From positions 1 through 64,000 of the forward strand of contig NZ_JAKLTQ010000015.1 of the NCBI RefSeq assembly GCF_022012395.1: a DNA stretch of 64,000 nt, read 5' to 3'. The notes beneath the pieces were generated by a model, which was given only the letters and a program-made list of their open reading frames with translations, was not told the origin of the DNA and did no database searches. The stretch is from Arthrobacter hankyongi. GTDB taxonomy: Bacteria > Actinomycetota > Actinomycetes > Actinomycetales > Micrococcaceae. Both the position numbers and the translations under genes were made by a program. Below, in pieces: positions 25,277 to 63,865 of the stretch; the first letter of the stretch is position 1, and the number at the start of each line of letters is the position of its first letter.

Positions 25277-25528
25277 GTGCCCGAATCGAAGCCGCGCAAG
25301 AAGACCGAGCGCCGGCCGCAGGAGACGGTAGCCAAGGACTACAAGCCGAATCCGGTCTGGTACAAGCCGGTCATGTTCGGCCTGATGATCATTGGTCTGC
25401 TGTGGATCATCGTCTTCTACATCACGCAGGGCGTCTGGCCGCTTCCCGCTGCCGGTTCCTGGAACATCCTCATCGGCTTCGGCATCGCCATCGTCGGCTT
25501 CCTGATGACCACACGGTGGCGCTCCTAG
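25277..25528 (+). CDS. crgA: cell division protein CrgA
   Basis: An 83-residue protein with two membrane helices (YKPVMFGLMIIGLLWIIVFYITQG and GSWNILIGFGIAIVGFLMTTRW) after a basic cytoplasmic N-terminus. CrgA recruits division proteins such as FtsI in actinobacteria. The W-Y-K-P-V-M-F-G-L-M entry and the final TTRWRS are typical. AAGGAGGACCA precedes the GTG start. It stands apart from the pkn operon, as in mycobacteria. Confidence 0.95.
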   Translation: MPESKPRKKTERRPQETVAKDYKPNPVWYKPVMFGLMIIGLLWIIVFYITQGVWPLPAAGSWNILIGFGIAIVGFLMTTRWRS

Positions 25529-25697: not shown

Positions 25698-26891
25698 CTA
25701 CTTGGCGTCCGCCGCGGCGGCGATGACGGCCGCGGTGACCGCGGGGGCCACGCGCTCGTCCAGCGGGCTGGGAATGATGTAGTCCGGGCGCAGCCCGTCC
25801 TGCGCGGCGATGCCGGCGATTGCTTCGGCCGCGGCAACCTTCATCGCGGGGGTGATCCGCCGTGCCCCGGCGTCCAGGGCGCCGCGGAAGATGCCGGGGA
25901 ACGCCAGCACATTGTTGATCTGGTTGGCAAAGTCGGACCGGCCGGTAGCCACGACCTTGGCGTATTTGTGCGCGATCTCCGGGTGGATTTCCGGGTCCGG
26001 GTTGGACAGCGCGAAGATCACCGCGTCCGCGGACATCTTTGCCAGCGTTTCTTCCGGAACGGTGCCCGAGGACACGCCAATGAATACGTCCGCCCCGTCC
26101 AGGGCCTGCGTGGTGCCGCCGGTGATCGAGCGCGGGTTGGTGCGTGCGGCGTAGGCGGCCTTGATCTCGGTCAGGTCGCCGCGGTCGGTGTGGATGATGC
26201 CGCGGGAATCGAGCAGGATCACGTCGGTGATGCCGGCGGCCAGCAGGATCTCGGCCACCGCGATGCCGGCGGCACCGGCGCCGGAGATGACCACCTTGAG
26301 CGAGGCCGCCTCGCGGCCGATGACCTTCGCGGCGTTGGTCAGCGCGGCCAGGACCACGACGGCGGTGCCGTGCTGGTCGTCGTGCATCACCGGCATGTCC
26401 AGGGCCTCGATCAGCTTCGCCTCGAGCTCGAAGCAGCGCGGGGCGGCGATATCCTCCAGGTTGACCGCCCCAAAGCTCGAGCGCAGCCGGACCAGGGTCT
26501 CGACGATCTCGTCCACGTCGGTGGTCTCGAGCACCAGCGGGATCGAGTCCAGCCCGCCGAACTTCTTGAACAGGGCTGCCTTGCCCTCCATCACCGGCAG
26601 CGACGCGGCGGCGCCGATGTTCCCCAGGCCCAGCACTGCGGTGCCGTCCGAAACCACCGCGACCAGGCGCGAGGCCCAGGTGTAGCGTTTGGCCAGCTCC
26701 GGGTCCAGGTTGATGGCCCGCGAGACCTGGGCAACCCCCGGGGTGTAGGCGATGGACAGATCGCGCTTGTCGTCCAGCGGTGCGGTCAGTCCGATCTGCA
26801 GCTTGCCGCCCTCATGCGCGGCGAAGATCTCCTCGTCGGTCAGTTCAATGGAGTTGGAATTGCCAGCTATGGCGGTCAAAGCATTCCTCAT
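25698..26891 (-). CDS. NAD(P)-dependent malic enzyme
   Basis: A 397-residue enzyme that decarboxylates malate to pyruvate. Visible are DLSIAYTPGVAQVSRAI, SDGTAVLGLGNIGAAASLPVMEGKAALFKKFGG, MPVMHDDQHGTAVVVLAAL (metal and substrate site), the nucleotide loop VVISGAGAAGIAVAEILLAAG, and FALSNPDPEIHPE. The short form without a phosphotransacetylase domain is seen. The ATG at 26891 lacks a clear ribosome binding site; a TTG four codons in has GAGG upstream and is an alternative start. The upstream region is the DnaA-box cluster. Confidence 0.9.
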   Translation of the reverse strand: MRNALTAIAGNSNSIELTDEEIFAAHEGGKLQIGLTAPLDDKRDLSIAYTPGVAQVSRAINLDPELAKRYTWASRLVAVVSDGTAVLGLGNIGAAASLPVMEGKAALFKKFGGLDSIPLVLETTDVDEIVETLVRLRSSFGAVNLEDIAAPRCFELEAKLIEALDMPVMHDDQHGTAVVVLAALTNAAKVIGREAASLKVVISGAGAAGIAVAEILLAAGITDVILLDSRGIIHTDRGDLTEIKAAYAARTNPRSITGGTTQALDGADVFIGVSSGTVPEETLAKMSADAVIFALSNPDPEIHPEIAHKYAKVVATGRSDFANQINNVLAFPGIFRGALDAGARRITPAMKVAAAEAIAGIAAQDGLRPDYIIPSPLDERVAPAVTAAVIAAAADAK

Positions 26892-27283
26892 TTCAACATC
26901 GGGGCCCGTGGACAGGGCGTAGATACGGCCACGTAGCAGGAGAGGTCTTCTCCGCCCGGCAGCTGCAGGCTGTGCTGTTCAACAAAGGACCGGTCCGCGC
27001 ACAATCAGGCCTGCTCGACCGCGGCGCGGCCAACCGGTGGCCATCCGACGTGCCCGGCTGGTCGAACCGGGTCCCGGACTCGTTAAATTACCGGACAATC
27101 CCTCCTCGCCGCAGGCATGTGTCCTGATCGGCGGCAATTGTGTCGCCCGGTTTGCGGACGCCGAACTTTGCACAGATGTTCACAGAGTTATCCACAGGTG
27201 TGTACAACTCGGAGTCGGAATCACGCAAAAACCCCTCGATCCCCGTGTTTCCGGACGAAGCACGATAAATCACACGCATGTAA

Positions 27284-27317
27284 GTTATCCACCCTGTGTA
27301 TAAACACTGTGGATAAC
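27284..27317. repeat. DnaA-box dyad 1
   Basis: GTTATCCAC at 27284-27292 is inverted as GTGGATAAC at 27309-27317. Between them GTGTATAAACAC (27296-27307) forms an inner inverted repeat with an ATAA centre. Confidence 0.85.
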
Positions 27318-27491
27318 CCGACGTCCATGCGCCTGGCGGGCGTCCTCAACCGTCGGACCGCCGAAAAGGTGCGTTGAACCGGCCGTCAATCCGCGAAAAC
27401 TCGTTCGCCGCTTCGCCCGGCCCACATCTGTCGGCCCCACACCGGCAACAGACGCAGCAAAGTCTGCAAATTGCCCGGGTCCACAGTTGTG

Positions 27492-27525
27492 CACACAGTT
27501 ATCCACAGGCGTGGATAACTGTGTG
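27492..27525. repeat. DnaA-box dyad 2, 15-bp perfect arms
   Basis: CACACAGTTATCCAC at 27492-27506 is exactly inverted at 27511-27525 around the loop AGGC. Each arm contains a DnaA box. The centre is 208 bases from that of dyad 1. Confidence 0.9.
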
Positions 27526-27673
27526 TCTTTCACCGCACCAATCGCCGCCAGCATGCGGAAGTGCGTGGTCATGGGAGCGGATGACAGGCCTGTAAGTTTC
27601 CCACACTGTGCACAACCCCTGTGGAAAACCGGAGCCTTAATGTGAAACAGCCGCGAAAACTCGTGGTGAAAGG

Positions 27674-27697
27674 TTAAATAAAAGGCCGGTACCGGCC
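27674..27697 (-). terminator. terminator of the rhomboid gene
   Basis: On the minus strand GGCCGGTACCGGCC is followed by TTTTATTTAA, a hairpin with a T-rich tail about 65 bases after the rhomboid stop. Confidence 0.65.
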
Positions 27698-27761
27698 CGT
27701 CAACGGTGAACGGTTCCGGTCCCGGCCGGGACAGATTCTCCAGGGCCTGGGCCGCCGGCGG

Positions 27762-28628
27762 TTAGCCAGTAATGGAGACGAGCATGGAGCCGGCCCAGGT
27801 CAGCACGGCCAGCAGCACCGCGATCCCGCCCAGGCCAGCCCACTGGAGCTTCTGCTGGTTCCTTCCCCGGGGCGCATAGACAATCACTGCCGCAGCCAGC
27901 GCCCCCACCACGAGTCCGCCCAGGTGTGCCTGCCAGGAGATCCCCGGCATCAGGCTCACTGCCGCGTTGATGGCGATCAGCACAAGAATCCCACGCACGT
28001 CCTGCTTGCGCTGCAGCTGGATGATGAAGAGCGTGGCAAACAGGCCGAAGACGCCGCCGGAGGCACCGACCACGCCCTGGTTCCACTGGCCCAGCAGCAG
28101 TACCGCCACGGACCCGCCCCAGATCGACAGCAGGTAGACGGTGATGAACCGTGCCCTGCCCAGCAGGGGTTCAAGTACCTGGCCGAATACCCACAGGGCG
28201 TACATGTTGAAGGCGATGTGCAGCACAAAGCCCTGCGAATGCAGGAATCCCGCGGTAATCATCCGCCATGGCTCGAACGGCACACCGGGCAGCTGGGAGG
28301 TGTAGACGGGGGCGTAGATCAGATAGTCCGAGATGGCCGGCACCACCCACTGCAGGATGTAAAACACGACGCAGGTAATGATGATGCCGACGGTCACCAC
28401 GGGCTGCCCGGACGTGGCGGCACCGAAGGCCGTCCGCGGCGTCTTGACTTTGGCAGCCAGCTCGTTCACACAGTCCACGCACTGGATGCCGACCGCGGCG
28501 CTGCGCTGGCATTCCGGGCAGGCAGGCCTGCCGCACCGCTGGCAGCGGACATAGGAGACTCGGTCCGGGTGCCGCGGGCACACGGGGGCTTCGGTGTGTG
28601 CAGGCTCTGCCGGAGCGCCGAACGACAT
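27762..28628 (-). CDS. rhomboid family intramembrane serine protease with N-terminal zinc-binding cysteines
   Basis: A 288-residue protease. The N-terminal 55 residues have paired cysteines (CPRHPDRVSYVRCQRCGRPACPECQ...CVDC), a B-box-like zinc motif. Six or so helices follow. The rhomboid signature is complete: H137-x3-N141 in LHIAFNMYALWVFG, catalytic S190 in GVVGASGGVFGLF, and partner H235 in SWQAHLGGLVVG. It cleaves membrane-helix substrates, not identified here. The stop is followed by a terminator. Confidence 0.93.
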   Translation of the reverse strand: MSFGAPAEPAHTEAPVCPRHPDRVSYVRCQRCGRPACPECQRSAAVGIQCVDCVNELAAKVKTPRTAFGAATSGQPVVTVGIIITCVVFYILQWVVPAISDYLIYAPVYTSQLPGVPFEPWRMITAGFLHSQGFVLHIAFNMYALWVFGQVLEPLLGRARFITVYLLSIWGGSVAVLLLGQWNQGVVGASGGVFGLFATLFIIQLQRKQDVRGILVLIAINAAVSLMPGISWQAHLGGLVVGALAAAVIVYAPRGRNQQKLQWAGLGGIAVLLAVLTWAGSMLVSITG

Positions 28629-43934: not shown

Positions 43935-45059
43935 CTACTGGTTGGGCAGGCGCACCGGCATCAGCAGGTAACGGTATTCGGGGCGGTCTTCACCGGTCAG
44001 GTCGTCCTGGCCGGTGAGCACCGCCGGCTTCGGCGGGGTGGTGAAGGAGAACCGCACGTACTTGGTGTCGAACGCGCTCAGGCCTTCGGAGAGGTAGTGC
44101 GGGTTGAAGGCGACGGTGATCTCGTCGCCGACCAGGGCCGCTTCCAGTGCTTCGGAGGCCTGGGCGTCTTCGCCGGTGCCGGCATCCAGGGTCAGCTGCC
44201 CGTCGGTGAAGGCCAGCCGGACCGGGGTGTTGCGCTCGGCCACCAGCGAGACACGGCGGACCGCCTCGACCAGCACCGAGGTTTCCACCGTCGCATGGAT
44301 CGGCGTGTTTTCGGGGAACAGCGAACGGATCTTGGGGTAGTCCCCGTCCACCAGCAGGGAGGTGGTGCGCCGGCCGCCGCTTTCGAATCCGATCAGTTCG
44401 CTGTTCTCGGACAGGGCCAGGCTCAGTTCCCCGGACCCGCCGAGGGTCTTGGCCACTTCGCTCAGGGTCTTGGCCTTGACCAGCGCACTGGTGGAGATGC
44501 CCGGATTGCCCGGACGCCAGGGAAGCTCACGCAGCGCCAGCCGGTACCGGTCGGTGGACAGCAGCGTGATCAGCCCGTCCTCGATTTCCATCCGGACACC
44601 GGTCAGGATCGGCAGGGTGTCGTCCCGGCTGGCGGCAATGATGACCTGGCTGACGGCCTGGGCAAAGGCATCCCCGTCCACGACGCCGCTGGCTTCGGGC
44701 AGTGCCGGCAGCTCGGGATAGTCGGCCACCGGCATGGTGGCCAGATTGAAGCGGCTGCTGCGGCAGGTCAGGGTGACCTTGGATCCGTCGGTGCCGATTT
44801 CGACCGGTGCGGAGGGCAGGCTGCGGCAGATGTCGGCCAGGAGCCGGCCGGAGACCAGGATGGTGCCCTCCTCGGAGACGTCCGCGGCGATCTGCAGCCG
44901 GGCGGAGATCTCGTAATCAAAGCTGGCGATGCTGACCATGCCGCCTTCGGCCTTGATCAGCAGCCCGGAGAGCACCGGCACGGGTGGGCGAGGCGACAGG
45001 GACCGGGCTGTCCAGGTTACGGCTTCGGCCAGTACATCCCGGTCAACTCTGAACTTCAC
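43935..45059 (-). CDS. dnaN: DNA polymerase III beta sliding clamp
   Basis: A 374-residue clamp with three similar domains: KFRVDRDVLAEAVTWTARSLSPRPPVPVLSGLLI at the start, ASRDDTLPILTGVRMEIEDG in the second domain, and the C-terminal RYLLMPVRLP. The GTG at 45059 aligns with the usual N-terminus, although the frame is open further upstream. The gene lies 51 bases upstream of gnd. Confidence 0.97.
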   Translation of the reverse strand: MKFRVDRDVLAEAVTWTARSLSPRPPVPVLSGLLIKAEGGMVSIASFDYEISARLQIAADVSEEGTILVSGRLLADICRSLPSAPVEIGTDGSKVTLTCRSSRFNLATMPVADYPELPALPEASGVVDGDAFAQAVSQVIIAASRDDTLPILTGVRMEIEDGLITLLSTDRYRLALRELPWRPGNPGISTSALVKAKTLSEVAKTLGGSGELSLALSENSELIGFESGGRRTTSLLVDGDYPKIRSLFPENTPIHATVETSVLVEAVRRVSLVAERNTPVRLAFTDGQLTLDAGTGEDAQASEALEAALVGDEITVAFNPHYLSEGLSAFDTKYVRFSFTTPPKPAVLTGQDDLTGEDRPEYRYLLMPVRLPNQ

Positions 45060-45662
45060 TGAAGGGTGCCGCCTTTCACAACGAACATGCCAAGGAAGGC
45101 CACCTGGGTCTTCAGCCGGCCCACCGCACGGCGTGCGGTGGGGCTGGTGAGTGCAGGTGACAACGATTCTTCCTGCAAGCTTAGCCGCCGTCAGGCGATT
45201 CTGACACCGGAACGCAGGCCGGGCGAGTGTTTGGGCCGGCGGACCGGAACGGGCCGTTTGTCCGAGGTTGGGTCTTGGACCTGATGTTATTTGGCAGGGT
45301 TCCAAGAATGGGATTCGTAGTGTTAATAACAGCTGTGGATTCTGTGGAAAACCTTCGCTCTTGCCGCCGCCGCGCGGAATCGGGCTGTTCACAAGCTGTG
45401 GGCTTTAAGCGGTTCCGCCGCCGCGGCCGTGTGGACAACTTTCCGGACAGTTTCGGCGATCCACAGGGGTACCCCCGTTTTCCTCCACAGGGTGCGGTTC
45501 TCCACTTAAGAATCCACAGAGTTATCCACACCTGTTAATTTTCCCGGCCCTGCGGTCCGGAAACGGCGGGCGGGCAGCACGGAAACAGGCAGCCCGTGGG
45601 CAAAGGAGGTGCCCCGGAGGGGGCGGAAGGGAAACCGGACGTCCGCCGCCGGCCGCGCGGCG
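45060..45662. promoter_or_regulatory. oriC: dnaA-dnaN intergenic region, candidate oriC
   Basis: No gene seen. DnaA boxes are at 45343 (minus, TTTTCCACA), 45430 (minus, TTGTCCACA) and 45522 (plus, TTATCCACA), with degenerate ones at 45386, 45460 and 45512. A GTTAATAAC palindrome at 45322-45330 is the most AT-rich spot. This is the usual actinobacterial origin position, but the box count is lower than at 27.2-27.6 kb. Confidence 0.6.
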
Positions 45663-47078
45663 TCAGTGTTCGCGCTGCTGCTGTTTGATCCGGTTGGTCA
45701 GCTCGGTGACCTGGTTGTAGATGGCACGCCGTTCGGCCATCAGCTCGCGGATCTTGCGGTCCGCGTGGATCACGGTGGTATGGTCCCGGCCGCCGAGCTC
45801 CTGGCCGATCTTGGGCAGCGACATGTCGGTCAGCTCGCGGCACAGGTACATGGCGATCTGGCGGGCGGTGACCAGGGTGCGGGTGCGGGACTTGCTCTTG
45901 AGTTCGTCCAGGCTCAGCTTGAAGTACGCGGCGGTCTGGCCCAGGATCGTCGCCGCCGTGATTTCCTCGGCGCCTTCGTCGGTGATCAGGTCCTTGAGCA
46001 CTGTTTCGGCCAGCACCATGTCCACCGGCTGCCGGTTCAGGCTGGCGAAGGCGGTGACCCGGATCAGCGCGCCTTCGAGTTCGCGGATGTTGGTGGAGAT
46101 TTTCGAAGCGATGTATTCCATCACCTCGTCCGGTACCAGCAGGCCTTCGTTCTGCGCCTTCTTGCGCAGGATGGCGATCCGGGTCTCCAGTTCCGGCGGC
46201 TGGATGTCGGTGAGCAGGCCCCATTCGAAGCGGGAGCGCATGCGTTCCTCGAAGCCGGAGAGCTGCTTGGGCGGCAGGTCCGAGGTGATGACCACCTGCT
46301 TGTTGTGGTTGTGCAGCGCGTTGAAGGTGTGGAAGAACTCCTCCTGCGTCGCATCCTTGTTGGCCAGGAACTGGATGTCGTCGATCAGCAGGATGTCCAC
46401 ATTGCGGTAGAGCTGCTTGAAGCTGGCGCCCTCGTCGTCGCGGATCGAGTTGATGAAGTCGTTGGTGAATTCCTCGGAATTGACGTACCGGACCCGGATG
46501 CCGTTGTACAGATGGCGGGCGTAGTGGCCGATGGCATGCAGCAGGTGGGTCTTGCCCAGCCCGGAGTCGCCGTAAATGAACAGCGGGTTGTAGGCCTTGG
46601 CCGGCGCCTCGGCGACCGCGACGGCGGCGGCGTGCGCGAAGCGGTTGGAGGAACCGATGACAAAGGTGTCGAAAACATACTTTGGATTCAGTCGGCCGAA
46701 TTCCTGCGACGTGCTTGGCGGGGCGGGCTGGGGCCTGACATCGTGCCGGATTTCGGGCGGCGCGGGCACCGGCTCGGACACCGGCTCCTGCTCCACATGG
46801 GCAGCCAGGTCCGCATCCACGCTGAAGGCACAGAGGATCTCGTCCTGGTAGACCTCGCGCAGGGCATCCTGGAGCGGATCCTTCAGCTGCTGGGACTGGA
46901 AGACCTCGCGGGTGAGCTCGTTGGGCACGGCCACCAGAAGGGTGGTGCCGATCAGCCCCTTGGCCTGGGCCAGGACGAGGAAGCCCCGCTGGCGCGGGGT
47001 CACCCGGTCGTCGCGTTCGAGGGTTCGGACCACCTTGCGCCAGGAACTTCCGACGTCGTTAATCTGGTCCGTATCCAC
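45663..47078 (-). CDS. dnaA: chromosomal replication initiator DnaA
   Basis: A 471-residue initiator. Domain III has Walker [15 protein letters not shown], Walker [16 protein letters not shown] and the arginine-finger region [22 protein letters not shown]. Domain IV has the DNA-binding signature [16 protein letters not shown]. The GTG at 47078 follows GAGGGGTTTTG with a good gap; a TTG just upstream is the only longer option. It is transcribed away from rpmH and towards dnaN. Confidence 0.97.
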
Positions 47079-47535
47079 CAAAACCCCTCAATAGCTCTTG
47101 CAACCCTGGCTGAGCCAAGGACCGGGCGTGTTGCGGGCCCGATCATCTGTCTTCGTCCACAGAGTTATGCACAGTCCGTGGATAAAGTGCCCCTGCCAAG
47201 GGTAGAGGAAGAATCCCGGAGAATACAGCCGGGCGGCGGGCCGTGGGGCGTCCCGGCAGGCTACCGGAGTGTTAGTCTGGGCGAGGGTTGTCCACAGGAA
47301 ATCTTCGGTTGTGGATGGCGTTTTTCCTTTGGCCGGTTTGACGGGCGACGTCGGTAGCCCCTACCGTTATGTAGTCCACCGTGTCTGCCTTGTGCATTCC
47401 TGCATGCCTGCAGGGGAATGAACGAATCCCCGTGGCCATGACCGGAACGTACCGGGCCGGCACCTCATAGAGCGTCCGCCTGTGCCTTCAGCAACGGGTT
47501 CAGGCGCATCTTTCGATCGTCTTGGAGTTACCACC
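47079..47535. promoter_or_regulatory. divergent dnaA/rpmH promoter region with DnaA boxes
   Basis: No gene seen. DnaA boxes at 47165 (plus, TTATGCACA), 47177 (minus, one mismatch) and 47288 (plus, TTGTCCACA) suggest dnaA autoregulation or an origin extension. Confidence 0.65.
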
Positions 47536-50959: not shown

Positions 50960-51928
50960 ATGGAGGTTTCACGTGAAACAACGAGTGGCGGCAAGGTCAG
51001 TATGAAAGTTGATGAAGAGGCTACGGTTCCGAACGTAATGGATACTATTGACGAGAGCACGCCCCTGGCAGCGGAGCTGGCGAATGAGAACCGCCGGCGC
51101 GAGCGGCTGCAGGGCAAAGAGTTGCCCAGGCCGGCCAAGACGCGCATCCTCACGGTCAGCAACCAGAAGGGCGGTGTCGGCAAGACAACCACCACGGTGA
51201 ACCTGGCAGCGGCCCTGGGCGCTGCGGGTTTGAACGTCCTGGTCATCGACATCGATCCGCAGGGCAATGCCTCCACCGCGCTCGGTGTCGAGCACCATGC
51301 GGAGATCGAAAGCATCTACGACGTGCTGATCAACGACCTGCCGCTGAAGGAAGTCATCGCCCCGTGCGCCGACGTGCCGAACCTGATCTGCGCCCCGGCC
51401 ACCATCCACCTGGCCGGCGCCGAGATCGAACTGGTGTCCCTCGTGGCCCGGGAGCAGCGGCTGCGCCGGGCGATCGACGTCTACGCCCGGGAACGCGAGA
51501 AGGCGGGACTGCCGCGGCTTGACTACATTTTCATCGACTGCCCGCCCAGCCTCGGCCTGCTGACCGTCAACGCGTTTGTCGCCGCGCACGAAGTGCTGAT
51601 TCCGATCCAGTGCGAGTACTACGCCCTTGAGGGATTGAGCCAGCTGCTCAAGAACATCGAAATGATCCAGAAGCACCTGAACGCGGATCTGGTTGTTTCC
51701 ACCATCCTGCTGACCATGTACGACGGCCGCACGAACCTCGCCGCGCAGGTCGCAGCGGAAGTGCGCGAGCACTTTCCCGAGCAGGTGCTCAGCGCCGTCG
51801 TGCCCCGCTCGGTCCGGATCTCCGAGGCCCCGAGCTACCAGCAGACGGTGATCACCTACGACCCGAATTCCAGCGGTGCCCTGTCCTATCAGGAAGCTGC
51901 GGCCGAAATCGCCGAACGCGCCGGGTAA
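50960..51928 (+). CDS. parA: chromosome-partitioning ATPase ParA
   Basis: A 322-residue deviant-Walker ATPase: VSNQKGGVGKTTTTVNLAAALG, VIDIDPQGNASTALG, YIFIDCPPSLGLLTVNAFVAA. An N-terminal ~60-residue extension precedes the fold. Two starts are possible. The ATG at 50960 (GGGAAGG upstream) makes parS encode residues 3-7 (VSRET); the ATG at 51002 (AAGG upstream) leaves parS in the leader. parB lies 87 bases downstream. Confidence 0.95.
   Translation: MEVSRETTSGGKVSMKVDEEATVPNVMDTIDESTPLAAELANENRRRERLQGKELPRPAKTRILTVSNQKGGVGKTTTTVNLAAALGAAGLNVLVIDIDPQGNASTALGVEHHAEIESIYDVLINDLPLKEVIAPCADVPNLICAPATIHLAGAEIELVSLVAREQRLRRAIDVYAREREKAGLPRLDYIFIDCPPSLGLLTVNAFVAAHEVLIPIQCEYYALEGLSQLLKNIEMIQKHLNADLVVSTILLTMYDGRTNLAAQVAAEVREHFPEQVLSAVVPRSVRISEAPSYQQTVITYDPNSSGALSYQEAAAEIAERAG
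50966..50979. other. parS: parS site 1
   Basis: GTTTCACGTGAAAC, a perfect 14-bp parS palindrome, overlapping or just upstream of the parA start. Confidence 0.95.
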
Positions 51929-52015
51929 CTCCGGTCATCCTGAACGGCACCAGTAGAATGACCTCTGACTTGAAATGCACCGCCGGCACAGATGCAGTAC
52001 GGAAGGAATCCCCAG

Positions 52016-53326
52016 ATGAGTGAGAAGCGGCGCGGACTCGGAAGAGGACTGGGCGCACTGATCCCCAGCACACCCGCGGCGGCAACTCTGGAGGAGGACA
52101 CGGCAGGGGATGCCGCCCGGAAAACCAGGCCCGTGGACCTGTTCTTCCCGGCGCCCCCGTCCCGCGGGGACGGGGCGGCCGAAGAGGGCACCGGGTCGTC
52201 GGCCGCGCACGTTGCCGAGGTACTGCGGGCACCCCGGAAGAAGGCCGCGCCGGCCCGCAGGACGCCGGCGAAGAAGCCTGCCGCCGCCGCTGCGTCCCGG
52301 GATGCGGACACCGAGGGGATGACGGCCGGGGAGGCGTCCGTGGCGGACAACCCGCCGGCGGGCGGGGGTAAGGGAGCCGACGGTCAGGGTGCCCTGGACC
52401 TTGGCGGCATTCAGGCCGCCGAGTATGCCGCAGAAGCCGTGGACAGTCCGGCTGCTGCCGACAGCGCCGACGCCGCGGACGGCTCCGACATTGACGTGCT
52501 GATGCCCGTGCCCGGTGCCGCCTTCGCCGAACTGCCGATCGAGTTGATCCATCCCAACCGGAAGCAGCCCAGGTCGGTCTTCGACGAAGAGGACATGGCG
52601 GAGCTGGTCCACTCGGTGCGCGAGATCGGCATCCTGCAGCCGGTTGTGGTGCGTCCCTCGAGCGAATCCGGCGACCACCAGTATGAACTTGTCATGGGTG
52701 AGCGCCGCTGGCGCGCCGCCCAGGCCGCCGGGCTCGAGGCGGTTCCGGCGATCATCCGCTCCACCGCGGATGATGACCTGCTCCGCGACGCCCTGCTGGA
52801 GAACCTGCACCGGAGCCAGCTGAATCCGCTGGAAGAAGCGGCCGCCTACCAGCAGCTGCTGGAGGATTTCGGCTGCACGCACGACGAGCTGGCGGAGCGG
52901 ATCGGCCGGTCCCGGCCGCAGATTTCCAATACCATCCGGCTGATGAAGCTTCCGCCGCTGGTGCAGCGCCGGGTTGCCGCCGGTGTCCTGACTGCCGGAC
53001 ATGCCCGGGCCCTGCTGGGTCTGAGCGAGGTGGCCGAGATGGAGAAGCTGGCCCAGCGGATTGTGGCCGAGGGCATGTCCGTGCGCAGCACCGAGGAGGC
53101 AGTGGCGCTCAGCGGCGGCGCCTCGCGGCCGGCCCGGGAGAGCAAACCGAAGGACAGCGGCCGGCACGAGCGGCTGGACTATCTGGCCAATTCGCTGTCG
53201 GACCGGCTGGATACCAATGTGAAGATCACGCTGGGGGCACGCAAGGGCCGGGTCAGCATTGAGTTCGCCAGCGTGGAAGATCTCAACCGGATCATGGATG
53301 TGCTGAGCCCCGGCTCGGCGAACTAG
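52016..53326 (+). CDS. parB: chromosome-partitioning protein ParB
   Basis: A 436-residue CTP-dependent clamp that loads at parS. The N-terminal [13 protein letters not shown] binds ParA. An unusually long Ala/Asp/Gly-rich linker (about 160 residues) precedes the CTPase domain ([42 protein letters not shown]) and the HTH ([23 protein letters not shown]). GGAAGGAATCCCCAG precedes the ATG. parS sites surround the gene. Confidence 0.96.
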
Positions 53327-53356
53327 GGGTTGCGGACCGGAGCACCTGTCCGGTCG

Positions 53357-53370
53357 GTTTCACGTGAAAC
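53357..53370. other. parS: parS site 2
   Basis: GTTTCACGTGAAAC, 31 bases after the parB stop. Its last five bases are the first five of the parB terminator stem. Confidence 0.95.
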
Positions 53371-53410
53371 AGGTAAGGGCCCGGCCGCTGGCCGGGCCCT
53401 TACCTGTTTC
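53366..53410 (+). terminator. parB terminator, 21-bp perfect stem
   Basis: Two perfect 21-base arms (left begins GAAACAGGTAAGGGCC) enclose a three-base loop. The right arm ends in TGTTTC. Confidence 0.85.
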
Positions 53411-53522
53411 CAGGTGCTGAGCGGGACTGGCCCGATGCGTCAGCCGGCTGATCCGTGCCGCCGCCGTCCTGGCCGCAATCCCGAATGCCTGCGGTCCTGT
53501 GCTGCGCCGCGACGTTGTGGAA

Positions 53523-53536
53523 GTTTCACGTGAAAC
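53523..53536. other. parS: parS site 3
   Basis: GTTTCACGTGAAAC, perfect consensus. Confidence 0.95.
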
Positions 53537-53565
53537 ACCGGACGGGCGGAGGCTGGGGTGCTGGG

Positions 53566-53579
53566 GTTCCACGTGGAAC
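53566..53579. other. parS: parS-like variant site
   Basis: GTTCCACGTGGAAC, a perfect palindrome differing from the consensus at two symmetrical positions, 43 bases from site 3. Confidence 0.6.
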
Positions 53580-53689
53580 ATCGCCCCCGGGAGCCGGCGG
53601 CGGACCGGGGGGCGCTGCCGGCCGCCCGGGGTGCCGCGGAGCGGCCGGGCAGCATCGCGGTCCTTCCCACCGAACCCCCTGTGCACGCT

Positions 53690-54190
53690 CGGATGCTTAC
53701 CGGGGTATCTGCGTTGTTGGACAGGTCAGCCCCTCAACCCTGAGCCGTGTCGAAACCGGGCATCGCAGGATGGCCCTTGACCAACTGGTGCCGATCGCCC
53801 GGGCACCGGACATTACCTGGATCGGCTCGTCGAGTCCGGTGAGGACGACGACGTGGTGAGCCGGCCCCAGGCCGAGCACACGCCGGGGTGACGACCTGGC
53901 CATTGACGCGCGCGCTCCACGGCGTCATCGTGGCCACGATGCGAATCACGCCGGAATGGACACCGGGCCCAGGGGAGCCGAGGGTGCACCCGGGTCACGA
54001 GTGGTTCACCGTCTTGTCCGGCACGGCCTGCCTGCCACTGGGGAGCGGACCATTTTGGCTCGGGCCGGGGCTGCGGCCGAGTTCCCGACCATGGTGCCGC
54101 ACTTCATCGGCGCCCGGGACGGCCCCGTCGAGATCCTCGCCATCTTCGATCCGGACGGGAAGCGGGCCCACCTGCACGCCCGGATGCTGC
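53690..54190 (+). pseudogene. decayed XRE-family regulator with cupin domain
   Basis: HTH-type sequence SPSTLSRVETGHRRMALDQLVPIARA is in one frame, LDRLVESGEDDDVVSRPQ in a second, PGEPRVHPGHEWFTVLSGTACLPLG (cupin motif 1) in a third, and AEFPTMVPHFIGARDGPVEILAIFDPDGKRAHLHAR (cupin motif 2) back in the first. At least three frameshifts break a typical XRE-cupin regulator of about 190 residues. The N-terminus is also lost. Confidence 0.75.
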
Positions 54191-54213
54191 CGTGTGAAAC
54201 CCCGGCCGGTGGC

Positions 54214-54227
54214 GTTTCACGTGAAAC
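54214..54227. other. parS: parS site 4
   Basis: GTTTCACGTGAAAC, perfect, just after the decayed gene. Confidence 0.95.
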
Positions 54228-54322
54228 GGAAGCTGCTCCCCGAACCAGGCCGGCGGTGCCGCGTGCCGATTTGTGCCGGTGCGGCCATCGCGGCCGCGCC
54301 GCAGGGCGGTGGTCGGCGGCCC

Positions 54323-54336
54323 GTTTCACGTGAAAC
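54323..54336. other. parS: parS site 5
   Basis: GTTTCACGTGAAAC, perfect, 60 bases from the kdpE stop. Confidence 0.95.
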
Positions 54337-54395
54337 GGCGGCGGCCCAGGGGAGGAGGCCGGCCGTCCGTTCCGGGCCGCGCGGAGGCCAAGGCC

Positions 54396-55085
54396 TCATT
54401 CCGCCTGGACAGGGTCGGGGACATAACGGTAGCCCATGCCCGGCTCGGTGACGAAGTAGCGCGGTGCCGCCGGATCCGGCTCCAGCTTCTTGCGTAATTG
54501 CCCGATATACAGCCTCAGGTAGCCGGTGTCCCTGGTGTGCCGGGGCCCCCAGACCTCCGCCAGCATGGTCTGCTGGGAGATCAGCTTGCCGGGATTGCTG
54601 ACCAGCAGATCCAGCAGCCGCCATTCCGTGGGGGTCAGCCGGACGGGCCGTCCCTGCCGGATGACCTGCCGGGCCGACAGGTCGGCGGTAATGTCGGCGA
54701 AGGCGACGACCGGGTCATTGGCCGCGATGGGAGTGCGCCGTGTGAGCGCCCGGATCCGGGCGAGCAGTTCCTCGGTCGAGAAGGGTTTCGTGACGTAGTC
54801 GTCCGCCCCGAGATCCAGCGCGCGCACCTTGTCGGCGGAATCGGTTCGGCCGGAAATTACCAGGATCGGGATCCGGCTCCAGCCGCGCAGCCCCTCGATG
54901 ACTTCGAAGCCGCTGAACCTCGGCATGCCCAAATCCAGCAGGACCAGGTCAGGGTGCAGGTCGGCGGACTTGCGCAGCGCCGAGGCGCCGTCGGCGGCGG
55001 TGACGACCTCGTAATCGTAGCCGGCCAGGGTGATGCGCAGGGCGCGCAGGATCTGCGGATCGTCGTCGGCGACCAGGATTCTCAT
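54396..55085 (-). CDS. kdpE: KDP operon response regulator KdpE
   Basis: A 229-residue OmpR-type regulator. MRILVADDDPQILRAL opens the receiver, the phospho-acceptor is D51 in LVLLDLGMPRFSGFEV, and GADDYVTKPFSTEELLARIRALTRR follows. The winged helix has LTPTEWRLLDLLVSNPGKLISQQTMLAEVWG and YLRLYIGQLRKKLE. It activates kdp transcription at low potassium or high osmolarity. The start overlaps the kdpD stop. Confidence 0.96.
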   Translation of the reverse strand: MRILVADDDPQILRALRITLAGYDYEVVTAADGASALRKSADLHPDLVLLDLGMPRFSGFEVIEGLRGWSRIPILVISGRTDSADKVRALDLGADDYVTKPFSTEELLARIRALTRRTPIAANDPVVAFADITADLSARQVIRQGRPVRLTPTEWRLLDLLVSNPGKLISQQTMLAEVWGPRHTRDTGYLRLYIGQLRKKLEPDPAAPRYFVTEPGMGYRYVPDPVQAE

Positions 55086-57598
55086 TCGCGTACCTGCCCT
55101 GTCTGCGGTACCTGCACGGACTCGGACGCCGCCTGCCGCAGGGAGACGACCATGGTCAGGCCGCCGCCCGGCGTCTCTTCGATCTCCAGCGAGCCGCCCA
55201 TGCCCTCCGCGAACCCCTTGGACAGCGCGAGGCCGAGGCCAAGCCCGGTCTGGTTGTCGGTGTCGCCCCGGCGTTGGAAGGGGAGGAACATGTCCTGATG
55301 GCGGTCCGCGGGAACGCCCGGCCCGTGGTCGATGATGCGGATTTCGCAGCTGCCGGCGAACTGGCTGGCCGCGATGACGGCCGGCCGATCGGGCGGCGAG
55401 TGCTGGAGGGCATTGGCCAGCAGATTGACGATGACGCGCCGGAGCAGGACCGCATCGGCCAGCACCGGTTGCAGGCTCTCCGGCAGGTCCAGGTCGACGT
55501 CGGCCGGTCCCACGCCGAGTTCCTCCAGGGCGGGCAGCACAACGTCCTCGACGTCGGTGGGTGCGAGTTCGACGGCGAGCACGCCGGCCTGCAGCCTGCT
55601 GGCGTCCAGCAGGTTGGTGACCAGGTCGGAGAGGCTGTTGAGGCTCTCTTCGGCGGTGGCCAGCAGGTCTTCGCGGTCCTTCTCGGACCAGGTGACATCG
55701 GTGGAGCGCAGGCCCGTGATGGCCGCGGTTGCCGCCGTCAGCGGCCGGCGCAGGTCGTGCCCGACGGCCTGGAGCAGGGCGCTGCGCACCCGGTCCGCTT
55801 CGGCCAGCGGTCCGATCTCGCGGGCGGCCTCCGACAGATCCCGGTAGTCCAGGGTGGCCTCGATCTGCGCGGCAATGGCCGCCAGCAGCCGGCTGTCGGC
55901 CGCCTCCAGGTCCCGGCCGTAGAGCTCCAAGGTCGCCCGGCTGCCGACCGGGAGGCTGGTGCGGTGTGCGGCGCCGTCGGTGTCGCCGTCGACGGCGAGC
56001 ACGTCGTCGCCGGCCGACAGCCTGGCGCCGGAGAGGCCGAAGGCCTCGCGGGTGCGGCTGATGAGTGACTGGAGGGCATCCCCGCCGCGGAGCACGTTGC
56101 CGGCGACGGTCGCCAGCAGTTCCGATTCGGCTCCCGCCCGGGCGGCGGCCCGGCTGCGCCGGGCCGCCTGGTCCACCACGTAGCTGACCAGGACCGCGTT
56201 GATGACGTAGAGCACCAGGGCGGCGAAATGCGACGGCTCGTTGATGGTCACGCGGTGCAGCGGTTCGATGAAGAAGTAGTCGAGGGTCAGGCCGGAGAGC
56301 AGCGCGGCGAAGACGGCCGGCCCGAAGCCGCCGACCAGCGCGACGAGGACGACCAGCAGCTGGTAGCTGAGCACTTCCACGGTGATGGACTGCGGAGTCC
56401 TCAGGGCGGCCAGCAGCCAGGTCAGCAGCGGGCCGCCGGCTACGGCCAGGACCCAGCCGAGGAGGCGGCGCCGGAGCGTCAGTGCCCCGGCCAGCCGGGG
56501 CAGGGCGAAGCGTCCGCCGGCGGCGGAGTGGGTGACGATGTGGACGTCGATGTCGCCTGATTCGCGTACCACGGTGGCGCCGATGCCCGGGCCGCTGAGC
56601 AGGGAGGCCAGCCGGGTGCGCCGGCTGACCCCGATGACCAGCTGGGTGGCGTTGGCGGCCCGGGCGAAATCCACCAGTGCGCGGGGAACGTCGCCGCCGA
56701 GGATCTGGTGGTAGCTGCCGCCGAGGCGTTCGACCAGCAGTCGCTGGGCGGCCAGGGCACCCGGGTCGGGTTCGCGCAGGCCGTCCTGGGCGGTCACATG
56801 CACGGCAATCAGCTCGCCTCCGGCGGAACGCGCAGCGATGCGTGCTCCCCGGCGCAGCAGGGTTTCGCCTTCGGGGCCGCCGGTGAGGGCGACGACGACG
56901 CGTTCCCGGGCTTCCCACTTGGCGTCGATGCCGTGTTCGGTGCGGTATTTGTTCAGGGCGCTGTCCACCTCGTCGGCGAGCCAGAGCAGTGCGATTTCCC
57001 GCAGCGCGGTGAGGTTGCCCAGCCGGAAGTAGTTCGACAGGGCGGCGTCGATGCGGGACTGCGGATAGACCAGGCCGTCGCTGAGTCGTTCCCGGAGCGC
57101 CTGCGGGGTGAGGTCCACCAGTTCGATCTCGTCCGCGCCGCGCAGCACCGCGTCCGGAATGGTCTCCCGCTGCTGCACGCCGGTGATCTGCAGGACGACG
57201 TCATTGAGTGATTCGATGTGCTGGATATTGACCGTGGAGATGACGTTGATGCCGGCCTCGAGCAGCGTCTGGACATCCTGCCAGCGCTTCTCGTGGGCCA
57301 GGCCCGGCGCGTTGGTGTGGGCCAGCTCGTCGACCAGCGCGAATTCCGGCTTGCGGGCCAGGACCGCGGCCAGGTCCAGGTCGGTCAGCGTCACGCCGCG
57401 GTGCTCGACGGCCAGCCGCGGGATGGTCTCCAGGCCTTGGGCCATGGCCGCGGTGGCATCGCGGCCATGGTCTTCCATCAGCGCGACCACCACATCGTTG
57501 CCGTCCGCCCGGAGCCGGCGGCCCTCCTCGAGCATCGTGTAGGTTTTACCGACGCCCGGTGCCGCCCCCAGCAGGACGCGCAGCCGTCCCTGTGCCAT
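55082..57598 (-). CDS. kdpD: KDP operon sensor kinase KdpD
   Basis: An 838-residue kinase. The N-terminal KdpD domain has the Walker A GAAPGVGKTYTMLEEG, VDELAHTNAPG and a universal-stress-like domain (IAARSAGGELIAVHVTAQDGL, VIGVSRRTRLASLLSGPGIG). Four membrane helices follow near residues 390-490, then a GAF-like domain, the HisKA box AVGHDLRRPLTAATAAITGL with H614, and the ATPase blocks IVNLLANALQHS and QTGLGLGLALSKGF. The ATG at 57598 aligns with the KdpD N-terminus. It starts four bases after the kdpC stop. Confidence 0.96.
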   Translation of the reverse strand: MAQGRLRVLLGAAPGVGKTYTMLEEGRRLRADGNDVVVALMEDHGRDATAAMAQGLETIPRLAVEHRGVTLTDLDLAAVLARKPEFALVDELAHTNAPGLAHEKRWQDVQTLLEAGINVISTVNIQHIESLNDVVLQITGVQQRETIPDAVLRGADEIELVDLTPQALRERLSDGLVYPQSRIDAALSNYFRLGNLTALREIALLWLADEVDSALNKYRTEHGIDAKWEARERVVVALTGGPEGETLLRRGARIAARSAGGELIAVHVTAQDGLREPDPGALAAQRLLVERLGGSYHQILGGDVPRALVDFARAANATQLVIGVSRRTRLASLLSGPGIGATVVRESGDIDVHIVTHSAAGGRFALPRLAGALTLRRRLLGWVLAVAGGPLLTWLLAALRTPQSITVEVLSYQLLVVLVALVGGFGPAVFAALLSGLTLDYFFIEPLHRVTINEPSHFAALVLYVINAVLVSYVVDQAARRSRAAARAGAESELLATVAGNVLRGGDALQSLISRTREAFGLSGARLSAGDDVLAVDGDTDGAAHRTSLPVGSRATLELYGRDLEAADSRLLAAIAAQIEATLDYRDLSEAAREIGPLAEADRVRSALLQAVGHDLRRPLTAATAAITGLRSTDVTWSEKDREDLLATAEESLNSLSDLVTNLLDASRLQAGVLAVELAPTDVEDVVLPALEELGVGPADVDLDLPESLQPVLADAVLLRRVIVNLLANALQHSPPDRPAVIAASQFAGSCEIRIIDHGPGVPADRHQDMFLPFQRRGDTDNQTGLGLGLALSKGFAEGMGGSLEIEETPGGGLTMVVSLRQAASESVQVPQTGQVRE

Positions 57599-57602
57599 AG
57601 CT

Positions 57603-58211
57603 CTAAGTGTCCATTCCCGCCAGCGCAATATTCAACTGCAGGACATTGACGGCCGGCTGGCCCAGATAGCCGGCGTCGCGGCCCTGGGTGTGCCGGGCCA
57701 CCAGGGCGCGGACGGTTGCCTCGCTCAAGTGCCGCGCCGCGGCCACCCGCGGGACCTGGAGCAGGGCATACTGCGGGCTGATATGCGGGTCCAGGCCGGA
57801 GCCGGAAGCGGTGACCGCGTCGGCCGGGACGGCGGCTTCAGGCACCCCGTCCAGCCGGGCCACGGCGTGCTTCCGTTCGTTGACTGCGGCGATGAACTTT
57901 GGGTTCTCCGGACCCCAGTTGCTGCCGCCGGACGCGCCGGCATCGTACCCGTCCCCGGCCGCCGAGGGTCTGGACTGGAACCACTGCGGCAGTGGTTTTC
58001 CGGAGGCATCGGTGAAGGACTGTCCGATCAACGCCGACCCGACCGGCCGGCCGCCAACGCTGAGCCTGGAACCATTGGCCTGGAACGGGAAGGCGGCCTG
58101 CCCCAGGCCGGTGAGGACCAGGGGATAGGCGATGCCCAGGACGGCGGTCAGCACGAGCATGGCGCGCAGGGCCGCCAGGTAAGGCCGTGCCGAGCCGCGG
58201 GATGTTCTCAT
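57603..58211 (-). CDS. kdpC: potassium-transporting ATPase subunit KdpC
   Basis: A 202-residue single-pass subunit: LRAMLVLTAVLGIAYPLVLTGLGQAAFPFQANGS, LIGQSFTD..WFQSRPSAAG, SGGSNWGPEN, VTASGSGLDPHISPQYALLQVPRVAAARHL. It stabilises the KdpFABC complex. It lies 41 bases downstream of kdpB. Confidence 0.97.
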   Translation of the reverse strand: MRTSRGSARPYLAALRAMLVLTAVLGIAYPLVLTGLGQAAFPFQANGSRLSVGGRPVGSALIGQSFTDASGKPLPQWFQSRPSAAGDGYDAGASGGSNWGPENPKFIAAVNERKHAVARLDGVPEAAVPADAVTASGSGLDPHISPQYALLQVPRVAAARHLSEATVRALVARHTQGRDAGYLGQPAVNVLQLNIALAGMDT

Positions 58212-58252
58212 GGTGTATTCCTGTCGGGTAGTCCGTGGCGGTCCGGGTGCGC

Positions 58253-60415
58253 TCAGAAGCCGGGGATCAGCATGACCAGCAGGTCGATGAGCTTGATGCC
58301 GATGAACGGGGCGATGACCCCGCCGATCCCGTAGATCAGCAGGTTCCGGTTCAGGATCCGGGCGGCGGAGGCCGGGCGGTACTTCACCCCGCGCAAGGCC
58401 AGCGGGATCAGCAGGACGATGATGATGGCATTGAAGATCACCGCCGAGAGGATGGCGGAAGCCGGAGAATGCAGCTGCATCAGGTTCAGCGCCGCCAGGC
58501 CGGGAAACACCGCGGCGAACATGGCCGGGATAATGGCGAAGTATTTGGCGACGTCGTTGGCGATGGAGAAAGTGGTCAGGGCACCGCGGGTGATCAGCAG
58601 CTGCTTGCCGATCCGCACGATGTCGATCAGCTTGGTCGGATCGGAGTCGAGGTCGACCATGTTGCCGGCCTCCTTGGCCGCGGAGGTGCCGGTGTTCATG
58701 GCGACGCCGACGTCGGCCTGGGCCAGGGCGGGGGCGTCGTTGGTGCCGTCGCCGGTCATGGCCACCAGGTTGCCGCCTTCCTGTTCGCGGCGGATCAGGC
58801 GCATCTTGTCCTCGGGGGTGGCCTCGGCCAGGAAGTCGTCGACCCCGGCCTCGGCGGCGATGGCCCGGGCGGTCAGGGGGTTGTCGCCGGTGATCATCAC
58901 GGTCCTGATGCCCATTGCACGGAGCTCGGCGAAGCGTTCCACCAGCCCGTCCTTGACCACGTCCTTGAGGTGGACGATGCCCAGGACCGAACCCCGTCCG
59001 GCAGCGGGCCGGGCGGCGACCACCAGCGGGGTGCCGCCGGTGCGGCCGATCCGTTCCATGACTTGGTCCATTTCCTGCCGGACGCCGTCGTCCATGCCGC
59101 CGTTGGCGTCCAGCCAGGCAGTGATGGCGGAGCCGGCGCCCTTGCGGATCCGGGCGCCGTCGGCATGGTCGATGCCGCTCATCCGGGTCTGGGCGGTGAA
59201 TGGGACGGCCTCGCCGTCCGCGGAGCCGGCGGCCTCGAAGCCCTGCTGCCGGGCCAGGTCTACGATGGACTTGCCCTCCGGGGTGGAGTCGCTGAGCGAG
59301 GCCAGCGCCGCGGCCCGGACCAGCTCGGCCAGGCTGTGGCCGCCGACCGGGACGAACTCGCTGGCCTGGCGGTTGCCGTAGGTGATGGTGCCGGTCTTGT
59401 CCAGCAGCAGCGTGGTGACATCGCCGGCGGCCTCGACGGCGCGGCCGGACATGGCCAGGACGTTGCGCTGGACCAGCCGGTCCATGCCGGCGATGCCGAT
59501 GGCCGAGAGCAGCGCGCCGATCGTCGTCGGGATGAGGCAGACGAGCAGGGCCACCAGGACCGGCACACTCACGGCGGCACCGGAGTAGCCGGCAATCGGG
59601 TCCAGGGACAGGACCACGACGACGAAGATGATGGACAGGGCCGCCAGCAGGATGTTCAGCGCGATCTCGTTGGGGGTTTTCTGCCGGGAGGCGCCCTCGA
59701 CCAGGCGGATCATCCGGTCCACGAGCGACTCGCCCGGCTGGCTGGTCATCCGGACCACGATGCGGTCCGAGAGTACCTGGGTGCCGCCGGTGACGGCGGA
59801 GCGGTCGCCGCCGGATTCGCGGATCACCGGAGCGGATTCACCGGTGATGGCGGATTCATTCACCGAGGCGATGCCCCAGATAATCTCCCCGTCGCCGGGA
59901 ATCAGTTCGCCGGCCGCGACGACGACGACGTCGCCGAGCCGCAGTTCCGACGACGGCACGTCGGTGGCCGGGACGCCGGTGGCCGCGCCGTCGCGTGCCG
60001 GGCTGTACGTGTCGAGGCGGTGGGCCATGGTGCTGGTCCGGGTCTTGCGCAGGCTGGCGGCCTGGGCCTTGCCGCGGCCTTCGGCCACGGATTCGGCCAG
60101 GTTGGCGAAGATGACGGTCAGCCACAGCCAGGCGGCAATGGCGGCGGTGAAGGAGGGCGGAACCGGCGCGGTACCGGAGGCCCGGCCGCCGCCAAGGAGC
60201 GGTTCGGCGATGGCCAGGGCCGTGGTCAGCGCGGCGCCGGTCTCGACGATGAACATGACGGGTGAATGCCACATCTGCCGAGGACCGAGCTTGCGCAGCG
60301 CCCCGGGAAGGGCGGCCGCCAGCTGTGGGAACGAGAAGGCATTCCGCTTGGTCCCGGGGGCGTGGCCGCCGGGGTGCCGGGCGGACTTTGACGGGGCAGG
60401 GGTCAGGGTGGACAC
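58253..60415 (-). CDS. kdpB: potassium-transporting ATPase ATP-binding subunit KdpB
   Basis: A 720-residue P-type ATPase. The phosphorylated aspartate is D339 in [13 protein letters not shown]. Other P-type blocks are [15 protein letters not shown] (actuator TGES), [31 protein letters not shown] and [21 protein letters not shown]. It energises potassium movement through KdpA. GTG start four bases after the kdpA stop. Confidence 0.98.
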
Positions 60416-60419
60416 GGTC

Positions 60420-62093: not shown

Positions 62094-62182
62094 CAGAAAC
62101 GCTCCGGCTTCACCAGGGCATAGAGCAGGTACGCGGTGGCTGCCAGGCCCAGCACCAGGGCCAGCAGGTCAAAGACGATCAC
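62093..62182 (-). CDS. kdpF: potassium-transporting ATPase subunit KdpF
   Basis: 29 residues: [20 protein letters not shown]... ending YALVKPERF, the KdpF pattern of a single helix with a K/R-P-E-x-F end. The GTG start overlaps the stop of an upstream 27-residue ORF (GTGA); an ATG at 62197 would add five residues but has no ribosome binding site. KdpF lies in the membrane and stabilises the pump. Confidence 0.85.
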
Positions 62183-62262
62183 AGTTTTTCGACCCATCGC
62201 GAGGCCAGGCCGAGGATCAGGAACACCGCGACGGTGGCGAGGATGAAGACGATGTCAAGCAC
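62179..62262 (-). CDS. 27-residue membrane microprotein upstream of kdpF
   Basis: GTG start with GGGAG five bases upstream, the only good ribosome binding site before kdpF. The product MLDIVFILATVAVFLILGLA... is one membrane helix ending SRWVEKL. Its stop overlaps the kdpF start, so kdpF probably depends on its translation. Its size and helix resemble KdpF, and it may be an additional pump-associated subunit; that is inference. Confidence 0.6.
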   Translation of the reverse strand: MLDIVFILATVAVFLILGLASRWVEKL

Positions 62263-62517
62263 TTGAACTCCCAAAGGTGGACCTCGAGCGGCCGGCCAAG
62301 GTGGCGCCGCTTCGGCGCTTACGTCACGATTAGACACCCGCGCAGGCCGGCTGCCGGCGGTCCTAACGGCTTCCTAACGTCCCGGGCTTGAACCTCTACG
62401 CGGCCCTTACACCAGGTCGCCGGCCGGAGCAGGGCGTCCGCTGGCCGCCATTGGCATGGCGGCCGGAAGGGCCTATCGTCACAGCCAAGGGCTGAGTGTC
62501 CGAAAGGAGGACCTGCC
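62263..62517. promoter_or_regulatory. divergent kdp / corA promoter region
   Basis: 255 bases between divergent potassium and magnesium transport genes. The KdpE site should lie here. I see no clear direct repeat for KdpE and no other feature. Confidence 0.4.
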
Positions 62518-63534: not shown

Positions 63535-63696
63535 GCACCACCGCGGTGCGTGTCAGGATCGCGTCAGGATCCGGCCCGGAGCCGTTAAGGATTCGTCAGG
63601 AAACGGTTACGGCGTTCTTTTCCGCGGTTCCATGGTGACAGGGGAGCGGCCGCGGGCCGCCTCCGGAAAGCGGCCGGCAGGAGGAGAAGGGCCGTC

Positions 63697-63852
63697 ATGG
63701 AAACTGGCGTTTTCTGGGAAATGGTTCCGGTGTTCGTCGTCGGCGGGATCCTGCTCGGGTTCCTGATCCGCTCGCTGCTGCGTTACCGTGGCTGGTGGTC
63801 TTCGGCACTCAGTGGCCGGACCGGCCGGGCCGGACCCGGAACGGACCGGTAG
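63697..63852 (+). CDS. small membrane protein, 51 residues
   Basis: METGVFWEMVPVFVVGGILL... has one membrane helix (residues 9-27), then RSLLRYRGWWSSAL and a Gly/Arg-rich tail. GGAGGAGAAGGGCCGTC precedes the ATG. No family is recognised. It lies 162 bases after corA and is followed by a palindromic parS/terminator. Confidence 0.6.
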   Translation: METGVFWEMVPVFVVGGILLGFLIRSLLRYRGWWSSALSGRTGRAGPGTDR

Positions 63853-63865
63853 GGCGCGGAGCAGT

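Follow-up and report, generated by a model that had tools for sequence, protein, structure and literature searches.

A conserved DnaA-box cluster beside a rhomboid gene in Arthrobacter hankyongi and its relatives is probably a DnaA control locus near the replication origin

Does a dense cluster of DnaA boxes that lies apart from dnaA mark an origin of replication, a promoter, or a site that controls DnaA itself? The question is raised by a 64,000-nucleotide stretch of Arthrobacter hankyongi DNA (assembly GCF_022012395.1, contig NZ_JAKLTQ010000015.1, positions 1 to 64,000 of the forward strand; hereafter the window), in which eight exact boxes crowd into one intergenic gap 18.0 kb from dnaA, in keeping with the distance of about 18 kb given by an earlier, sequence-only reading. 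That reading had considered the true origin, a second origin module, and a titration or reactivation site resembling datA or the DnaA-reactivating sequences (DARS). Comparison with related genomes suggests that the cluster probably controls DnaA in cis, in the manner of datA or DARS, rather than being an origin or, for the most part, a promoter. The locus probably times the start of DNA copying rather than serving as a second origin, because relatives keep the cluster beside the same gene with a fixed layout.

The cluster stands out clearly from its background. Exact DnaA boxes (TTNTNCACA) occur 15 times in the window, where 100 dinucleotide shuffles give an expectation of 1.72. Eight of them start at 27188, 27199, 27295, 27308, 27487, 27499, 27607, and 27620 (span 27188-27628), within the 870-bp gap that extends from the malic enzyme start to the rhomboid stop (26892-27761). 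In 2000 dinucleotide shuffles this gap held a mean of 0.11 boxes, at most two, and never eight. The eight exact boxes of the sequence-only reading are thus borne out, but its three near matches were too few, as eight one-mismatch sites lie between 27166 and 27641. The near boxes at 27176, 27285, 27510, and 27597 form complete three-box groups with the exact boxes, and those at 27488 and 27606 overlap exact boxes. The host genome (5.19 Mb in 67 contigs) contains TTATCCACA 25 times, including three copies in the gap.

The boxes form a unit of two parts that occurs twice, at an offset of 311-312 bp, and the spacers of the two copies have diverged. Part one (27176-27207 and 27487-27518) is a ++- triplet with box starts 12 and 11 bp apart. 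In part two (27270-27316 and 27582-27628) a palindrome precedes a +-- triplet whose box starts are separated by 10 and 13 bp. Every triplet includes one near match among its three boxes. Module A (27176-27207) comprises a near box at 27176 (+) and exact boxes at 27188 (+) and 27199 (-), and its repeat at +311, Module C (27487-27518), comprises 27487 (+), 27499 (+), and a near box at 27510 (-). Module B (27285-27316) is a triplet resembling the DARS core, with box I at 27285 (+, TTATCCACC), box II at 27295 (-), and box III at 27308 (-); Module D (27597-27628), its repeat at +312, consists of a near box at 27597 (+) and boxes at 27607 (-) and 27620 (-). By motif match, the first palindrome copy (27270-27283, TCACACGCATGTAA) is a variant of TTACANNNNTGTAA, and the second (27582-27595, TGACAGGCCTGTAA) has three mismatches to TTACACNNGTGTAA. 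The exact-box centres in both part-two copies lie 22.5 and 35.5 bp from the palindrome centre. The window holds, twice, a 45-bp composite of the palindrome TTACANNNNTGTAA and three boxes, one facing two, at fixed distances.

The sequence-only reading had named conservation in related Micrococcaceae as one way to judge the cluster, and in relatives the boxes are indeed kept. Among 80 named relatives, which are the best 80 of 520 loci by rhomboid similarity and belong mostly to Arthrobacter and Pseudarthrobacter, 79 carry at least three exact boxes (range 3-10, mean 7.1) in the 1.7 kb that follow the rhomboid gene, and in 74 the count is at least four; the contig of the remaining locus ends 22 bases past the match. 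Box density downstream of the rhomboid gene is 4.2 per kb versus 0.14 per kb elsewhere in the same loci, and the reversed pattern occurs 7 times in total. The sequence TTATCCACA accounts for 344 of the 571 boxes in these loci, and strongly preferred start-to-start distances are 13 bp on the same strand (61 times) and 11 bp on opposite strands (32 times). In 20 loci from further genera of the same family, here labelled f1, at least two exact boxes lie downstream in 19 and at least three in 17. In G132, from one of these genera, a single box follows the rhomboid gene, and a composite lies about 12 kb beyond.

The palindrome and the triplets are conserved together with the boxes. The palindrome TTACAC-NN-GTGTAA (at most two mismatches, spacer 2) occurs 131 times in 101 of 161 rhomboid gaps, whereas control half-sites give 1 and other spacers 2-11. 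All but three of these palindromes (128/131) start within 40 bp of an exact box, and the commonest centre-to-centre offsets are again 22.5 bp (62 cases) and 35.5 bp (62 cases), followed by 20.5 bp (25 cases). Of the 106 f1 gaps, 83 contain the palindrome, as do 12 of 30 from other families. The full composite, at up to two mismatches, is found in 62 of 120 family genomes and its reversed control in 0 of 120; 58 of the 76 composite matches, in 49 genomes, lie no more than 2 kb downstream of the rhomboid gene. As the window and one same-genus relative supplied the pattern, the count for other genera may be too low. The ++-/+-- topology accounts for 83 of 131 triplets in the 161 gaps, where random orientation would give a quarter, although this fraction is no probability since the sequences are related. 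In 66 of the 161 gaps, at least one triplet has its box I facing boxes II and III and no more than one mismatch in total. The topology is not exclusive to the rhomboid gap, as it is also shown by five of the eight triplets in 30 dnaA loci.

Natural relocations reveal what the cluster travels with. Displaced loci lie 108 kb (G010, 3 boxes), 149 kb (G070, 4 boxes), 232 kb (G128, 6 boxes), and 330 kb (G112, 5 boxes) from dnaA, and since the boxes are kept at such distances, the locus goes with the rhomboid gene and not with dnaA. Outside f1, at least one exact box lies downstream of the rhomboid gene in 16 of 28 loci (L240-L267) and at least two in 12, and the 1.5 kb upstream of the gene holds a box in none of the 28. 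Nine further loci at the order level add a downstream box in six, with an upstream box as well in one; genome G025 is in both sets. In family f34, whose 7-10 Mb genomes appear by their size to be Streptomyces-like, all six rhomboid-crgA gaps examined contain 3-5 exact boxes, and the second rhomboid locus of G174 contains none. Measured in four f34 genomes, the distance between dnaA and the rhomboid gene is 21-23 kb in three and 55 kb in the other. In the genus g12 (G125, G108, G063, and G086), dnaA lies about 14 kb from the rhomboid gene and in inverted orientation to it, which offers a possible natural orientation test. Further clusters of 4-5 exact boxes within 1 kb (G003:C2 and G009:C4) lie about 84-92 kb away on the other side of dnaA.

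A titration or reactivation site of the datA/DARS type is supported by the conservation of the locus, its fixed layout, its retention after relocation, and its DARS-core-like three-box topology. From the observed layout and its conservation we infer a mechanism in which DnaA would assemble on the preset triplets, each with one box facing two tandem boxes, and a putative dimeric DNA-binding partner on the adjoining palindrome would help or gate this assembly. The locus would in this way change the amount of active DnaA that reaches oriC in the dnaA-dnaN gap, and so act on initiation.

Whether the cluster could itself be an origin is best judged against the dnaA region. In the window, dnaA (45663-47081, minus strand, TIGR00362) is followed by dnaN, which lies within an open reading frame at 43935-45392 on the minus strand (profile match). 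The gap between them (45061-45662) is the likely oriC, with three exact boxes and a box-box-TTATTAACACTACG element identified by box and module match; these three boxes, and two on the dnaA-rpmH side, agree with the earlier counts. Next to dnaA, a box is succeeded by another that is TATCCACA-like and then by GTTATTAACACTACGAATCC in 10 of 10 same-genus genomes (at most one mismatch to the 14-base element), and the origin-type element recurs at up to two mismatches in 8 of 13 other f1 dnaA loci; the dnaA region of G112 yielded no match to it. In the available text of a Kocuria genome report, oriC is likewise predicted between dnaA and dnaN, with an unwinding element and a DnaA-trio (PMC12500396). 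An oriC has its boxes beside a conserved AT-rich unwinding-type element, and the corresponding origin-type module, a box at the right distance from TTATTAACACTACG, occurs in 21 of 30 dnaA loci versus 0 of 161 rhomboid gaps. The element alone is found in the rhomboid gaps once at two mismatches and otherwise at 3-7. At three mismatches it occurs in 49 gaps, versus 5 for the reversed motif, and these are mostly TTATTAACACTGTG, a box I variant that runs into box II.

A second origin, or the second half of a bipartite origin, would find its main support in the guanine-cytosine (GC) skew. In four relatives the cumulative skew forms a plateau that starts at dnaA, extends for about 20-22 kb, and gives way to a rise only beyond the cluster; the window shows nearly such a plateau. 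Relative to dnaA, two of these relatives have their minimum at +2.6 kb, near dnaN, and two at about +20 kb, and the window has it at +10.9 kb. Cumulative skew, a check proposed by the sequence-only reading, does not resolve sites only 15-18 kb from each other. Where it rises beyond the cluster, the gene strand changes as well, which confounds the plateau between the two sites, and the skew at third codon positions by region and strand is intermediate; GC skew was accordingly dropped as an arbiter between dnaA and the cluster. The displaced loci offer similar hints. In G010 the cumulative skew is roughly flat over about 105 kb, from dnaA to the displaced cluster, with its minimum near dnaN (L180-L197). 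In G112 a small dip is found at the locus, and the minimum of the fetched stretch, at 10-kb sampling, lies near dnaA; this chromosome looks rearranged because the skew is positive on the far side of the displaced locus. In G128 the skew turns positive just past the displaced locus. These dips and rises were not used as proof, as oppositely oriented genes follow the loci (gene calls for G010 only). With the origin module in the dnaA-dnaN region and absent from the 161 rhomboid gaps, and with the G112 minimum near dnaA, the proposal of a true origin is unsupported. Nothing specific speaks for a second origin module, and a second or bipartite origin is highly unlikely.

The genes around the cluster bear on a different explanation, namely promoter-type regulation of the neighbours by DnaA. 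The constant border of the cluster is the 3' end of the rhomboid-family protease gene (27762-28628, minus strand; rhomboid profiles below curated cut-offs), which faces the boxes. On the far side lies crgA, encoding the cell division protein CrgA (25277-25528, plus strand, PF06781), and between crgA and the cluster lies the malic enzyme gene (25698-26891, minus strand, profile match). The malic enzyme and rhomboid flanks that were originally named are therefore correct for the window, but the malic enzyme is a local feature. Downstream crgA, on the opposite strand, is found in 70 of the 80 named loci, with the malic enzyme between in only six. A PF06781 match confirmed CrgA both in the window and in one f34 genome, whose crgA is directly convergent. 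A simple codon-usage script served as gene caller, so the orientation counts are rough; it places no gene between in 15 of the 70 crgA loci, a first gene facing the cluster in 26, and one that runs codirectionally with the rhomboid gene in 29, among them the malic enzyme in six and, in one checked other, a gene of the CMD family (PF02627). The 15 loci without an intervening gene and the 26 convergent ones together place the cluster between two 3' ends in 41 of 70. An initial view that the gap is simply convergent between rhomboid and crgA in 64 of 80 loci was dropped, as other genes intervene in many. In numerous Pseudarthrobacter-type loci (L111, L113, L114, and others), a CMD-family gene, checked in L111, splits the box cluster in two.

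A promoter role would fit the malic enzyme start that faces the cluster in the window and the codirectional neighbours elsewhere. In most loci, however, the next gene is convergent or is crgA itself, and the neighbour varies while the cluster stays: the intervening genes checked encode a CMD-family protein, a methyladenine glycosylase, and a short-chain dehydrogenase, in addition to the malic enzyme. In other genera, composites stand beside still other genes. Regulation of neighbouring promoters is thus a very unlikely main function.

An architectural role has also been considered, in which the locus would organize or anchor the chromosome near the origin, through segregation or looping, with DnaA as the architectural protein. 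The locus is origin-proximal in most measured genomes, and the accessible part of a study on Streptomyces proposes that domain I contacts link distant DnaA-box clusters within oriC (PMC13270200). Against this stand the loci kept at 108-330 kb from dnaA and the absence of any parS-type site (GTTTCACGTGAAAC) on the cluster side of dnaA in the window, and the explanation appears improbable. The parS-type sites of the window, six exact and one with two mismatches (50966-63877), all lie on the parAB side of dnaA.

If the cluster is a DnaA control locus, the direction of its effect has to be weighed. In the E. coli DARS core, according to a review, box I runs opposite to both box II and box III, and a head-to-head contact of DnaA on boxes I and II is a prominent feature (PMC5742627). 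Modules A to D share this arrangement of one box opposite two tandem boxes, which is repeated in the window and is the commonest across loci, and E. coli DARS1 and DARS2 likewise read as +--. By analogy, ADP-DnaA would assemble head-to-head on the triplets and release ADP, and initiation would be promoted. The window locus differs from DARS in its adjoining palindrome and its several triplets. With datA the locus shares an intergenic DnaA-box cluster and, as far as the accessible descriptions go, a partner-protein site beside the boxes, here the putative one on the palindrome. datA is defined by an IHF site between its boxes and by ATP-DnaA hydrolysis, and in the window locus a palindrome adjoins the boxes. 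datA also lies outside promoters, and the window gap is intergenic, with the next gene in relatives oriented as described above (41 versus 29 of 70 loci). In datA of E. coli MG1655, zero +-- triplets of the tested geometry were found.

Reviews report that untimely initiation is repressed by oriC-proximal DnaA-box clusters in both Streptomyces coelicolor and Bacillus subtilis. Because these near-oriC clusters are reported as repressive, restraint of initiation, by titration or inactivation of DnaA, appears the likelier effect of the locus, and DARS-like reactivation is a rather doubtful one. The locus is perhaps a relative of the Streptomyces initiation-restraining cluster. It shares with the Streptomyces coelicolor clusters the occurrence of DnaA boxes near oriC in an actinomycete, and all six f34 gaps examined have both the syntenic place and the boxes of such a titration cluster. 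The f1 loci differ in having more boxes and the box-palindrome composite, which was not found in f34, where the palindrome itself was seen in 0 of 6 gaps at the thresholds used. The Bacillus subtilis clusters likewise lie near oriC, are reported to restrain initiation, and belong to another phylum. Smulczyk-Krawczyszyn 2006 reportedly described the oriC-proximal DnaA-box clusters of Streptomyces coelicolor, and Okumura 2012 is said to have done so for Bacillus subtilis. The tested Streptomyces cluster H69 was presumably named after the cosmid that carries crgA and would then equal the rhomboid-crgA site (SCO3854-SCO3855).

Several observations weigh against a datA/DARS-like control locus or limit its reach. 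Counts over related genomes are not independent. The cluster is patchy outside f1: 12 of the 28 class-level loci have zero exact boxes in the 1.5-kb downstream flank, and among 13 loci from other families a box lies close to the rhomboid gene in four and in nine there is none. With the next gene codirectional in 29 of 70 loci, the boxes there could act on the promoter of the neighbour. Box starts 10 and 13 or 11 and 12 bp apart in the window contrast with 14 and 12 bp in DARS1 and DARS2 of E. coli MG1655, so that the distance from box I to box II is 10-11 rather than 14 bp. The remaining 18 of the 76 composites lie further from the rhomboid gene or on another contig, and among those opened, several are clusters of multiple boxes in other f1 genera (L353-L361), close to superoxide dismutase, Rpf-type transglycosylase, or TetR genes. 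The palindrome is only mildly enriched genome-wide, exact YTACAYNNRTGTAR occurring in 58 of 118 class genomes at 80 sites versus 45 for reversed controls.

The wider distribution of the palindrome may nevertheless say something about a partner protein. By-eye comparison places exact YTACAYNNRTGTAR next to the rhomboid gene in at least 13 of the 58 genomes, and other copies of the palindrome lie near nrdR, whiB-type, glutaredoxin, LysM/SLT, rsmG, and Rv2175c-type genes (ten proteins checked in Pfam, two of them CrgA). Copies near nrdR were seen in many actinomycete families (L300, L301, L303-L305, L314-L316, L318, L319, and L323-L325; two Pfam-checked), and exact DnaA boxes adjoin the copy in L301. 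MtrA, WhiA, NrdR, and Rv2175c were considered as binders, but none could be assigned, and the neighbouring genes pointed to no single regulator. More tentatively, the locus could represent an actinomycete element in which DARS-like triplets stand at fixed distances to a palindrome with a putative dedicated partner, present also at nrdR and whiB-type promoters, and this would tie the control of initiation to deoxynucleotide (dNTP) supply and cell-cycle genes.

An Arthrobacter or crgA-gap DnaA-box cluster is undescribed in the literature searched, most subscription papers being outside its reach. The locus is real, conserved, and structured; it is of an ordinary kind, a DnaA-box control cluster near oriC, and new in extent and layout within that literature. 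The loci that set the DnaA activity cycle have been worked out mainly in E. coli, and for actinomycetes the passages seen mention datA-like clusters in Streptomyces with neither a partner protein nor a layout. A syntenic and rigidly built element throughout a whole family, with traces across the class, provides a defined 45-bp target, and its palindrome offers a handle on the putative partner. If the reading as a control locus is true, a DARS-like topology would recur in a distant phylum.
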